Below, in pieces: positions 37,782 through 56,062 of a DNA stretch of 64,000 bases. The notes under the pieces are model-generated. The model did no database searches, was not told the DNA's origin, and saw nothing but the letters and a program-made list of their open reading frames with translations. Each line of letters opens with the position of its first letter. The first letter of the stretch is position 1. A program made the translations under genes and the position numbers. The stretch comes from Sphingomicrobium marinum (GTDB taxonomy: Bacteria; Pseudomonadota; Alphaproteobacteria; Sphingomonadales; Sphingomonadaceae), in the NCBI RefSeq assembly GCF_026157105.1, contig NZ_JANPVQ010000001.1:675501-739500 (forward strand), given 5' to 3'.

Positions 37782-38087
37782 TCCCGGCTCACGCCGAGTC
37801 GCGGCAATTTTTCTTTCCAACAGAGTTATCCACAGGGTTCTCAACCGGTTGAACGGGCACGCACGCCCCATTTTGGGCCCGCCAAAAGGCGCAGAAAACC
37901 GCCAAGAGTCACGAAAACCCACAAAATGGCATGAAATGGCATTGAAATCCGCGGCAACGTGGGTTACTCACATTCCGTTGGAAGCGCGGGGCAATCCGTT
38001 TCTCGATGAATGGGTTCGGTTCGGGCGGCGATGCCGCTCACCCGGAGACAGGGAAGCTTTGCCTTGCGCCCGAAGCGGGGAGAGCAA
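37782..38087 (+). promoter_or_regulatory. 306-base control region before mraZ (dcw operon)
   Basis: No gene in this stretch. It holds, in order: a perfect DnaA box TTATCCACA (37826-37834); a 12-base palindrome TCAACCGGTTGA (37841-37852) overlapping a GTTC-N10-GAAC inverted repeat (37837-37854); a CCCA-TTT-TGGG hairpin near 37868; and a tandem ten-base repeat AAATGGCATg/AAATGGCATt (37924-37943). Two GANTC sites lie at 37796-37800 and 37906-37910. A weak promoter candidate TTGAAA (37942-37947), 17 bases, TACTCA follows. The ten-base period recalls the repeated operators bound by MraZ in other bacteria, although the repeat sequence differs from the known GTGGG element. Confidence 0.45.
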
Positions 38088-52363: not shown

Positions 52364-53205
52364 GCGCAAGGAAGGTCAAACGAGGTGCCATGGGGCGCAA
52401 GCCCACGCGCAAGAAGAAGGTGCAGCCCAAGGGGCCTGCGGACAAGCTGCTGCGCGGCTCGATCATTGCATTTTTCATCATTTTCGGCGTGGCGATCCTG
52501 TTCGTGCTGGGCGTGCCGCAAAGCGCGGCGCGCAGTGTCGGCGCGGCGCTTGGTGGGCTGGGCTTTCGGGTGAACAATGTCGACGTTGTCGGCATCGACG
52601 CGATGGATCCCGATCCTGTCTATCGCATCGCCCTTGAAGAACGCGAAACCGCGCTGCCGTTGGTCGATGTCGAAGGCGTGCGCGACCAGCTGATGGACTT
52701 TGGCTACGTCCGCGATGCGCGCGTCTCGCGCCGCTATCCCGATACGCTGGTGATCGATATTGTCGAACGCACACCCAAGGCCTTGTGGCAGGATGGCGAG
52801 CGGTTGATGCTGGTCGACGAGGAAGGCGTAGTGCTGGGCCGTGTCCCGGTCGCCGAAATGCCCGACCTGCCCTTGTTGTTGGGGCCGGGCGCCAATCGTA
52901 ACTATCCGCAATTGCAACGTATCTTGGACCGCGAGCCTGCATTGGCAAGCCAGCTCGCCTCGGCGCGGTGGGTCGGCGCGCGGCGCTGGGATCTCAATGT
53001 GGCCACCGGCGAAATCCTTGCCTTGCCCGAAGGAGAAAAGGCCGCCTCCGATGCGCTTGCCGCTTTCATGCGCAACGACCGCGCCAATCCGCTGCTCGGC
53101 ATCGGGGTGAAACGCTACGACCTCAGGATCGAAGGGCAGGCGATCGCGCGCATGCCCGAACCCGTCGACACCTATCGGGAAGAGGGCGCCAATGGCAGTC
53201 AGTGA
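52360..53205 (+). CDS. ftsQ: Cell division protein FtsQ
   Basis: Divisome scaffold that binds FtsL/FtsB. The 281-residue protein has a very basic cytoplasmic tail (about 1-27), one transmembrane helix (about 30-48), a POTRA domain beginning FRVNNVDVVGI (about 68-135) and the C-terminal FtsQ domain. GTG start overlaps the ddl stop. Its last 14 bases overlap the start of ftsA. Confidence 0.94.
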   Translation: MSARKVKRGAMGRKPTRKKKVQPKGPADKLLRGSIIAFFIIFGVAILFVLGVPQSAARSVGAALGGLGFRVNNVDVVGIDAMDPDPVYRIALEERETALPLVDVEGVRDQLMDFGYVRDARVSRRYPDTLVIDIVERTPKALWQDGERLMLVDEEGVVLGRVPVAEMPDLPLLLGPGANRNYPQLQRILDREPALASQLASARWVGARRWDLNVATGEILALPEGEKAASDALAAFMRNDRANPLLGIGVKRYDLRIEGQAIARMPEPVDTYREEGANGSQ

Positions 53206-54427
53206 CGCGCAGCTCTTCGCCGCGCTCGATATCGGGTCATCGAAGGTTTCCGCGCTGGTCGTGCGGCGGCATGACGACGGTCGGCTCGAGGTGCTCGGCT
53301 CGGGCCAGCGCGAAGGCCGCGGGGTCAAGCGCGGCTACATCACCGACATGGACCTGAGCGAAACCGCGGTGCGCGAAGCCGTCGACCTTGCCGAGCGCAT
53401 GAGCGGGGTGAATGTCGAGGAAGTCTGGGCGAGCTTTGCCGCGGGCGGGCTGGTGAGCGACGTCGCGACCGTCGAAGTCGAACTTGGCGGCCATCCGGTC
53501 GAGGACAGCGATATCAAGCAATTGCTCGATGCCGGGCGCGGCGCGATCGATCGCGAAGGGCAGGTCGTGCTCCACGCGCATCCCGCGCTCTATACGATTG
53601 ACGGGGTGCAGGGCGTGAAGAACCCGCGCGGTCTCCATGCCAGCAGGCTGGGGGTCGATATCCACGTCATCGCCGCGGACGAGGCGCCGCTGCGCAATCT
53701 CGATACCGTGATCCGGTCAGCGCATCTTGGCGTGGGCGCGATTGTCGCGGCCCCGGTCGCGGCAGCGGCGGCCGTGTTGACCGACGACGAACAGGATCTG
53801 GGCGTCGCATTGGTCGAACTGGGTGCGGATGTCACCAATGTTTCGCTGCATCTGGGCGGGATGCTGGTCGGCTTGCGGTCGATCCCGCTTGGCGCGCGCG
53901 ACATCACCGAGGATATCGCGATGGCGTTCGGCGTGCCGCGCCGCGATGCCGAGCGCATGAAGTGTTTCTATGGTTCGGCGATGCAGAGCCCGCGCGACAA
54001 TCACGAAATGATCGACGCCGAACGCGGCGCAGGATCGCAGAAGATCAGCCGCGCGCAGCTCGTCACAGTCATTCGCGGCCGGATCGAGGAGATCGCCACC
54101 GAGGTCGATACGGCCTTAAAGGCGCTCGGTTTTTCGGGGCCTGTCGGCGGGCAGGTCGTGATTACCGGCGGCGGTGCGGAACTCAAGAACCTCGACGACT
54201 ATATGCAAGGCGTGCTCGGGCGCAGCGTGCGGTTCGGCAAGCCCAAAACGATGTCCGGGCTGCCCGACGCATTGGCGGGGCCGGCGTCGGCGACGCTGGT
54301 GGGGCTGGCGCAACTTGCCGGTCGCGGCACGGGGCATGACGGCGACCTTGCACTGGGCGAGATTACGCGGCGCAAATCGCGCGGTGGCCTGCTGTCACGG
54401 CTCATTTCGGCATTGCGCGAAGGGTAA
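53192..54427 (+). CDS. ftsA: Cell division protein FtsA
   Basis: Actin-like ATPase tethering FtsZ to the membrane. The 411-residue protein begins FAALDIGSSKVSALVV (phosphate-1 loop), has the 1C domain in the first half and TGGGAEL of the adenosine motif near 330. The C-terminal membrane helix is the amphipathic RGGLLSRLISALREG. It ends the overlapping run; a 198-base regulatory gap separates it from ftsZ. Confidence 0.97.
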   Translation: MAVSDAQLFAALDIGSSKVSALVVRRHDDGRLEVLGSGQREGRGVKRGYITDMDLSETAVREAVDLAERMSGVNVEEVWASFAAGGLVSDVATVEVELGGHPVEDSDIKQLLDAGRGAIDREGQVVLHAHPALYTIDGVQGVKNPRGLHASRLGVDIHVIAADEAPLRNLDTVIRSAHLGVGAIVAAPVAAAAAVLTDDEQDLGVALVELGADVTNVSLHLGGMLVGLRSIPLGARDITEDIAMAFGVPRRDAERMKCFYGSAMQSPRDNHEMIDAERGAGSQKISRAQLVTVIRGRIEEIATEVDTALKALGFSGPVGGQVVITGGGAELKNLDDYMQGVLGRSVRFGKPKTMSGLPDALAGPASATLVGLAQLAGRGTGHDGDLALGEITRRKSRGGLLSRLISALREG

Positions 54428-54625
54428 TATGCAAAAGTGAAAAACGTGTCCGCGGGGCTACTAACCTTTGTTAAATTGTGGCTAATTGGACTCAGGTCAG
54501 TCCCATTATGAATCAAATCTTCACTTTTTTGGGGCGCGGACTATTTTTTCCTTGGGCCAGAGTCCGTGCTGTGCAAAGATTCATCCAAGAGAGTCAGACG
54601 CTTGCAATGAAAGAGGGGCTTCCAA
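54428..54625 (+). promoter_or_regulatory. ftsZ control region with five GANTC methylation sites and a CtrA-like site
   Basis: AT-richer than the rest of the window. GANTC (CcrM target) sites occur at 54489-54493, 54510-54514, 54560-54564, 54578-54582 and 54591-54595: five in 107 bases, where one per 256 bases is expected by chance at even composition. A CtrA-like TTAA-N7-CTAA (54471-54485; consensus TTAA-N7-TTAA) precedes them. A plausible core promoter is TTGGAC (54487-54492) with a -10 near TATGAA (54508-54513), though spacing is short. The layout suggests cell-cycle control of ftsZ by CtrA and DNA methylation. Confidence 0.65.
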
Positions 54626-56062
54626 ATGAGCTTTGACCTGATGCGACCCGAAGTGGACGAGCTGCGTCCCAGAATCAGCGTGATCGGTGTCGGGGGCGCC
54701 GGTGGCAATGCGGTGGCGAACATGATGCAGGCGGACGTCCAGGGCGTCGAATTTCTCGTCGCCAATACGGATGCGCAGGCGCTGAATGCCAGCGAGGCCG
54801 ACACGCGCATCCAGCTCGGTCTCAAGATCACCCAGGGTCTTGGTGCAGGGTCGCGTCCGGAGATCGGCCGCGCGGCGGCCGAAGAATCGCTCGAGGAAAT
54901 CGACAAGCTGCTCGAAGGTGCGCACATGTGCTTCATCGCTGCGGGCATGGGCGGCGGCACCGGCACCGGTGCGGCGCCCGTCATCGCCAAGCAGGCGCGC
55001 GGCAAGGGCATCCTGACCGTTGGCGTGGTGACCAAGCCGTTCGCGTTCGAAGGGTCGCGCCGCATGCGGTCGGCCGACGCGGGCATCGAGGAATTGCAGC
55101 AGCACGTCGACACGCTGATCGTCATCCCGAACCAGAATCTGTTCCGTCTCGCCAACGCCGACACGACGTTCAAGGAAGCGTTCGAGATGGCGGACGAGGT
55201 CTTGAAGCAGGGCGTTCGCGGCATCACCGATCTCATGGTCATGCCGGGCCTTATCAACCTCGACTTTGCCGATGTGCGCTCGGTGATGGGCGAAATGGGC
55301 AAGGCGATGATGGGCACGGGCGAAGCTTCGGGCGACAACCGCGCCATCGAAGCCGCCGAAAAGGCCATTTCCAACCCGCTGCTCGACGGTGTCAGCATGA
55401 AGGGCGCCAAGGGCGTGATCATCTCGATCGTCGGCGGCGAAGACATGAAGCTGATGGAGGTCGACGAGGCTGCAAGCCACATCAAGGAACTGGTCGACGA
55501 CGACGCCAACATCATCTGGGGCAGCGCGTTCAACCAGGACATGGACGGCCAGATCCGCGTCAGTGTGGTTGCCACGGGTATCGACGGCGAAGAGGCGGCC
55601 ATGCCCAAACCCGCGGCAACGGCGACCACGGCGTCGACGCAGCCGGGCAAGGTCTTCACCTTCCCGACGCCCAAGACCGCGCCAACCGGACCCGACGATA
55701 CGCCGACGCAGGTCAGCGTCCCTGAAACCGCCAACGAGGAAGAGGAAATCCTCGACCTTACGGCTGAAGACGAGGCCGACGAACTGGTGCTCGACAATGA
55801 AGACGTGCTGACCCCGCCGGTCACCAAACCGCCTTTCGTTGCGCCGGCCACGGACGACCTGTTGGACGACGAAGATGTCGAAGGCGAAGTGACGGCCGAA
55901 AAGCCTGCCGCTGGCGCCGCGTCGGGTGGCACGCTGTTCGAACGGATGAGCAATATCGCCAAGGGAGCAGGTGAAACCGAATCGCGCGCTGCCGAAGGTC
56001 CCGGTTTCCGCCGCGAACCGATTGATATCCCTAGCTTTCTCAATCGACAGAATAACCAGTAA
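54626..56062 (+). CDS. ftsZ: Cell division protein FtsZ
   Basis: Tubulin-like GTPase forming the division ring. The 478-residue protein has the GTPase core (about 15-325) with [13 protein letters not shown], the tubulin signature [10 protein letters not shown] and the NxxFAD region. A long acidic linker (about 325-460, unusually rich in Asp/Glu/Thr/Pro) follows. The conserved C-terminal peptide that binds FtsA is [13 protein letters not shown]. Separately promoted from the rest of dcw. AGAGGGG Shine-Dalgarno. Confidence 0.98.

Follow-up and report, generated by a model that had tools for sequence, protein, structure and literature searches.

The intergenic region between ftsA and ftsZ in the window (the whole stretch of 64,000 nucleotides that we analysed) carries five GANTC sites. 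On the sequences compared here, this array is real, conserved and enriched in the lineage of its host: 3 to 6 GANTC were found in the 200 bp before ftsZ in each of 64 upstream regions of the same genus (64/64), all of them distinct sequences. We hold with moderate confidence that CcrM methylates the region and that the ftsZ promoter within it responds to this methylation, the one site of the Caulobacter promoter being here extended to several; activation mediated by GcrA would be the most likely mode of action.

The array and its genomic background

In the 198 bp that separate ftsA from ftsZ (54428–54625), the sequence itself gives GANTC at 54489, 54510, 54560, 54578 and 54591, which are exactly the coordinates of the original prediction; a sixth site lies within ftsZ, at 54672. 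The offsets used below are counted from a conserved T-run followed by CTTGG, which served as anchor for the 64 genus upstreams; CTTGG is the most conserved block other than GANTC in the 59 upstreams that were profiled.

53192–54427, + strand: ftsA, upstream neighbour (TIGR01174, 293.6 bits, cut-off 175.85)
54428–54625, + strand: intergenic control region with the GANTC array (sequence, five GANTC, shuffles)
54471–54485, + strand: TTAA-N7-CTAA, CtrA-like, probably not a functional CtrA site (exact match, not conserved)
54489–54493, + strand: GACTC of the upstream group, offset -61 (site at -63 to -61 in 31 of 64; N is A in 18, C in 12, T in 1)
54504–54509, + strand: CATTAT, speculative candidate for the -10 of a promoter further upstream (sequence, alignment by eye)
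54510–54514, + strand: GAATC of the upstream group, offset -40 (site at -42 to -40 in 20 of 64)
54551–54556, + strand: CTTGGG following the T-run, proposed -35 of an ftsZ-proximal promoter (from the conserved block)
54560–54564, + strand: GAGTC in the proposed -35/-10 spacer (site at +10 to +12 in 51 of 64; N is C in 32, G in 14, A in 5)
54574–54580, + strand: CAAAGAT, candidate -10 region sharing bases with the GANTC listed below (from the alignment, weak match)
54578–54582, + strand: GATTC over the proposed -10 (site at +28 to +30 in 60 of 64; N is T in 58, A in 2)
54591–54595, + strand: GAGTC shortly after the proposed start (site at +41 to +43 in 9 of 64)
54613–54618, + strand: GAGGGG, likely ribosome-binding site (sequence)
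54626–56062, + strand: ftsZ (TIGR00065, 416.9 bits, cut-off 295.2)

A scan of the region with the sigma-70 consensus returned no promoter match, the proposed -10s included. It is with respect to this candidate promoter, devoid of a consensus match, that a GANTC is placed between -35 and -10 in 51 of the 64 upstreams.

Chance was predicted to provide fewer than one site, and dinucleotide shuffles of the 198 bp indeed contain 0.66 GANTC on average; at least five were reached in 3 shuffles of 20,000. The genome otherwise avoids GANTC: the whole window has 71 where dinucleotide shuffles lead to expect 312, and a sample of 464 kb (the window together with twenty 20-kb stretches, roughly one fifth of the 2.24 Mb) has 456, or 0.98 per kb. 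Nowhere else in this sample are GANTC packed so densely over a short distance as before ftsZ, and ftsZ with its 5 sites comes joint first among the 187 genes having an intergenic upstream region of their own, 133 of which show none at all. Only two sites had been noted before mraZ; they are found at 37796 and 37906, ahead of an mraZ-like open reading frame. The unusual density that had been claimed holds for the 464 kb examined, but it is not unique genome-wide: outside the sample, 7 GANTC precede ccrM within 142 bp, and a pntAA-like gene exceeds the density of ftsZ at its 3' end, where 6 GANTC are packed into 116 bp and five of these into 75 bp. In this last cluster (L001:1406–1521), four GANTC fall in 21 bp (G000:C1:1057786–1057806), adjoining TTTTTAACTTTTTGG. 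As L001 was met through an arbitrary pattern, other dense clusters may exist in the unsampled four fifths of the genome.

Conservation and preferred positions

Judged by FtsZ, the nearest named contig belongs to a Sphingomonas MAG, at 95% identity; next come Sphingomicrobium nitratireducens (77%) and S. lutaoense (80%), each recognised in the same-genus set by an identical upstream sequence. The ftsZ upstream of S. lutaoense DSM 24194 (L005) has three sites. A match to ftsZ was obtained in 68 of the 71 same-genus genomes searched; setting aside the 3 without match, 3 without N-terminus and one more (G224), 64 upstreams were retained. Three sites were found in 10 of them, four in 28, five in 18 and six in 8, that is a mean of 4.38 GANTC in 200 bp against 0.94 after shuffling, although same-genus relatives are non-independent observations. 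Seven control pentamers of the same make-up had means of 0.23 to 0.72 in these upstreams.

Since all 64 genus upstreams are enriched, a lack of enrichment in relatives, which would have spoken against the original prediction, is not what we found within the genus. Order-wide the enrichment is weaker: the 85 distinct upstreams of other Sphingomonadales have a mean of 1.42 against 0.75 shuffled, 19 of the 85 having none and 15 at least three, so that the observed/shuffled ratio drops from 4.7 within the genus to 1.9 beyond it. Before ftsZ, the mean is 1.2 in 20 further genomes from other Sphingomonadales families and 0.93 in 40 genomes from the rest of the alphaproteobacteria, hand-picked among 114 with a match and representing 39 families (one of them, f10, twice). 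In an FtsZ tree, built by a quick method from 118 of the 149 distinct rows, a branch with support 99 separates the genus from the remaining rows; outside the genus the rows with at least three sites are scattered (12 rows, 10 changes). Being genus-wide, and elsewhere modest and scattered on the tree, the array is thus typical of the genus rather than of the order. One family of the same order, f8, has 4 to 6 GANTC before ftsZ in the five genomes examined (G008, G015, G027, G054, G060), with positions near -82 and -36 common to several members; as far as these upstreams go, this suggests a separate gain.

Such an array might be a by-product of composition, an AT-rich intergenic region escaping GANTC avoidance and gathering a cluster by drift. 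Intergenic GANTC are about twice as frequent here as coding ones (1.73 versus 0.88 per kb in the sample, with rough gene calls), and intergenic enrichment, against an overall depletion of GANTC, is reported to be general in alphaproteobacteria (PMC3973325). However, most intergenic upstreams of this genome (133/187) are devoid of GANTC, shuffles of the region seldom attain five, the ratio to shuffles differs between the genus and the outside, and the positions recur. This explanation, already disfavoured, is in our view highly improbable; chance and composition were rejected on the shuffles, on the control pentamers and on the counts in the 187 background upstreams.

The conservation of the array and the positions of its sites are direct observations. 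Besides the positions listed above, a site at -53 to -51 occurs in 43 of 64 upstreams, as an alternative to the one at -42 to -40 in most other members, and a site at +20 to +22 in 44 of 64 (N is T in 35, A in 7, C in 2). The window has the -61, -40, +10, +28 and +41 sites and is without those at +21 and -53. In the spacer the pentamer is kept while its N varies, so that selection more likely acts on GANTC as such; at +28 to +30 N is T in 58 of 60, which points to a further constraint there, perhaps the -10.

Other motifs accompany the sites. Past the proposed start and ahead of the ribosome-binding site, a CAACGCG block is present in 37 of 64 genus upstreams and in 3 of 85 outside; its palindromic form, CAACGCGTTG, is found in 16 of 64, and the window copy, at about 54591–54605, is degenerate. 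DnaA boxes were considered and rejected, TTATCCACA occurring in only 4 of 64 genus upstreams and being absent from the window; a perfect DnaA box, TGTGGATAA, stands directly 5' of a GANTC in L013, L144, L148 and L151 (4/64).

One may ask whether some GANTC are parts of the site of another regulator, e.g. GATTCA-N2-GATTCA, common in the genus, methylation being then incidental. The nearly fixed T at +28 to +30, which recognition of GANTC alone leaves unexplained, and the palindrome-like block just downstream (CAACGCG, 37/64 versus 3/85 outside) would fit such a regulator. Against it, N is nearly fixed at one site only and varies between C, G and A in the spacer, the upstream sites shift between members while the total stays at 3 to 6, and the control pentamers are not raised. 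We consider this explanation unlikely.

The methylation machinery and the region upstream of ccrM

CcrM had been invoked from its role in Caulobacter, and its relevance to this host is supported by the presence of CcrM- and GcrA-family genes in the genome. The CcrM-like protein scores above both Pfam cut-offs (N6_N4_Mtase 227.9 bits, RAMA 59.3 bits) but below the NCBIfam CcrM equivalog cut-off (626 versus 830 bits); likewise the GcrA-like protein is well above the cut-off of PF07750 (149.8 bits, cut-off 26.9) but below that of NCBIfam GcrA (139.5 versus 280 bits). Falling below the equivalog cut-offs, both have their function assigned by family. The GC skew of the sampled stretches places the origin at about 0.24–0.35 Mb and the terminus at about 1.23–1.34 Mb; ftsZ, at 0.73 Mb, lies about 40% along the origin–terminus arm and ccrM, at 1.05 Mb, about 75%. 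In the part of the chromosome where the GC skew flips sign, near a ParA-like match at 239061, five GANTC in about 200 bp precede a small lipoprotein-like gene beside leuS (L175:5147–5342; G000:C1:245147–245342).

YGAKTCK is the GcrA consensus of Caulobacter (PMC7987155). None of the five sites of the window array fits it, and the 54672 site inside ftsZ does. A fit is present in 37 of 64 genus upstreams versus 17.5% of mono-nucleotide shuffles, a weaker control than dinucleotide ones.

The original prediction also placed a CtrA-like element before the array. The string is there, exactly at 54471–54485, and is the only TTAA-N7-YTAA of the window; as a CtrA element it is not supported, since TTAA-N7-YTAA occurs in 1 of 64 genus upstreams, the window alone, and the nearest relative (L112, 96% identical) reads TTAA-N7-CTCA. 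TTAA-N7-TTAA occurs in 0 of 64. CtrA control was rejected as the main reading because the string is unconserved and lost in L112. Some backing for the view that CtrA nevertheless governs this promoter as it does in Caulobacter, by way of the TTAA-N7-CTAA at 54471, might be found in the encoded CtrA, above the cut-off of NCBIfam NF045991 (419 versus 350 bits), and in TTAAC, which could be a CtrA half-site: it is present in 46 of 64 genus upstreams versus 22% of shuffles (again mono-nucleotide, the weaker control), immediately ahead of the -35-like block. However, TTAAC is frequent outside the genus too (48/85) and absent from the window's own region, and CtrA of Sphingomonas melonis is reported to be dispensable (PMC8116508). 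Together with the lack of conservation of the full motif, these observations make CtrA control very unlikely.

The array before ftsZ has an unexpected and larger counterpart at ccrM. In 200 bp upstream, this genome has 7 GANTC at ccrM, 5 at ftsZ, 2 at ctrA and none at mipZ and gcrA; the ccrM array (L132:487–628, G000:C1) lies 5' of ccrM, at 1051060. In the same genus all 30 loci sampled (L266–L295, out of 54 genomes matched) have 5 to 10 GANTC before ccrM, with a mean of 7.63 versus 1.38 shuffled. Among 40 loci hand-picked (L296–L335) out of 97 other genomes matched, the 20 from other genera of the family have 3 to 8 (mean 5.70 versus 1.02 shuffled) and the 20 from other Sphingomonadales families 4 to 8 (mean 5.75 versus 1.20). 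Start codons of ccrM were set by rule in these counts, and L285 and L315 have no start codon at the assumed place. These order-wide arrays suggest an autoregulation of CcrM in Sphingomonadales. In the portions of text returned by full-text literature searches on GANTC in the ccrM promoter and on ccrM autoregulation, we found no report of the array or of such a control.

Adjacent spacings in the ccrM array are often near 10, 20 and 30 bp. Helical phasing was tried as an account of them and is retained as no more than an idea: for ccrM the mean resultant at period 10 is 0.58 versus 0.32 at random (30 loci), with similar values at 10.5 and 10.75 (0.55 and 0.53); the loci are related, hence non-independent, and shared ancestry is inseparable from phasing; the arrays of other families are spaced differently; and for ftsZ a period of 9 scores as well as 10–10.5. 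Several genus ccrM upstreams (L268, L274, L277, L289, L290 and others) contain an inverted repeat, ACCACAAG..TTGAGTC / GACTCAACATCTTGTGGT, overlapping GANTC; its arms are matched in 19 and 20 of the 30 genus loci, and it could be an operator.

How the ftsZ array may be read

CcrM is essential in fast-growing Caulobacter because ftsZ is activated by CcrM. As the original prediction had it, the control of ftsZ by CcrM is established in Caulobacter, where activation goes through the methylation of a conserved CGACTC (PMC3708114); the idea is therefore not new, and it is the number of sites that is. Our case resembles the Caulobacter ftsZ and mipZ promoters in that a CcrM is encoded and, at the same gene, GANTC lies in the promoter region; and CGACTC is found in the spacer of many genus members, N being C in 32 of the 51 spacer sites (PMC3708114). 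The window's own spacer site, by contrast, reads AGAGTCC. Moreover Caulobacter has one CGACTC per promoter, whose importance was shown by mutation, whereas here we see from the sequence 3 to 6 GANTC in two groups; and mipZ, regulated by CcrM in Caulobacter, has no GANTC in its 200 bp upstream here (PMC3708114). More sites per promoter does not by itself show control by methylation (PMC2877005).

GcrA is reported to prefer methylated GANTC and to bind RNA polymerase (PMC3667746), and a GANTC between -10 and -35 marks Caulobacter promoters turning on at 40–60 min (PMC4287350). The region shares with these GcrA–sigma-70 promoters a GANTC in the proposed -10/-35 interval and a GcrA-like protein encoded in the genome; it differs by the sequence of the window sites, which do not fit YGAKTCK, and by a start site that is here a proposed one (PMC3667746; PMC4287350). 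ftsZ is likely under GcrA in some orders (PMC7987155). The link between CcrM and ftsZ is, on the other hand, described as weak or different in Agrobacterium and Brevundimonas (PMC11514494, PMC7987155).

The promoter, its methylation and the way this methylation would be read are what we infer. When the replication fork passes ftsZ, the GANTC sites would become hemimethylated, and with the accumulation of CcrM they would be fully methylated again. GcrA and the sigma-70 RNA polymerase would read the methyl marks, ftsZ being best transcribed with the core sites methylated; the extra GANTC sites might steepen or stabilise the response, and CtrA would not be needed. The 3 to 6 sites of all genus upstreams, with low control pentamers, count for such a methylation-read promoter, as do the CcrM-like and GcrA-like proteins encoded; the variable N of the spacer and the mixed N of the +21 site are expected if GANTC is the selected unit. 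The missing sigma-70 match, the five window sites that do not fit YGAKTCK, the missing +21 site in the window and the scores of the CcrM-like and GcrA-like proteins below the equivalog cut-offs count against it.

The sign of the effect could also be opposite, since in Agrobacterium gcrA is repressed by methylation and ftsZ is hardly responsive to CcrM (PMC11514494). In Agrobacterium tumefaciens 6 GANTC fall within 250 bp at gcrA, like ours a dense array before a cell-cycle gene, and methylation weakens this promoter even in E. coli; but the gene is another one, and gcrA has no GANTC in 200 bp here (PMC11514494). The main rival to our reading follows from this likeness: methylated GANTC in and around the core promoter would hinder RNA polymerase, and ftsZ would be released when hemimethylated after the passage of the fork. 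Consistent with silencing, the proposed -10 is covered by two preferred positions and followed by a third, and those Caulobacter promoters that have their GANTC elsewhere than in the -10/-35 interval reach their minimum at 40–60 min (PMC4287350). However, methylation acts as an activator at the ftsZ promoter studied in most depth (PMC3708114), and the spacer site, the one linked with activation, is kept in 51 of 64 upstreams. Silencing seems to us improbable, though to be kept in mind.

Multiple sites before a cell-cycle gene have a precedent in the same order, the ctrA promoters of Sphingomonadales having up to five GANTC in 300 bp (PMC8116508); the count there covers ctrA only, and ctrA of this genome has two in 200 bp. 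The arrays of ccrM and ftsZ lead us to a wider proposal, made with considerable reserve, in which both would form a linked pair of array promoters, CcrM acting as a self-controlled timer that fixes the timing of FtsZ without CtrA. Helically spaced GANTC (5 to 10 at ccrM, 3 to 6 at ftsZ) would then give a steep multi-site reading of methylation, and the fork passing ftsZ and then ccrM would set off the timer. Of the two arrays, the one at ccrM would be order-wide and the more ancient, and ftsZ would have been drawn in within the genus and, separately, in f8.

Returning to the methylation-read ftsZ promoter that we favour, a clade with multiplied ftsZ sites beside near relatives with 0 to 2 offers a natural series in which the number of sites may be related to the timing or the strength of methylation control.
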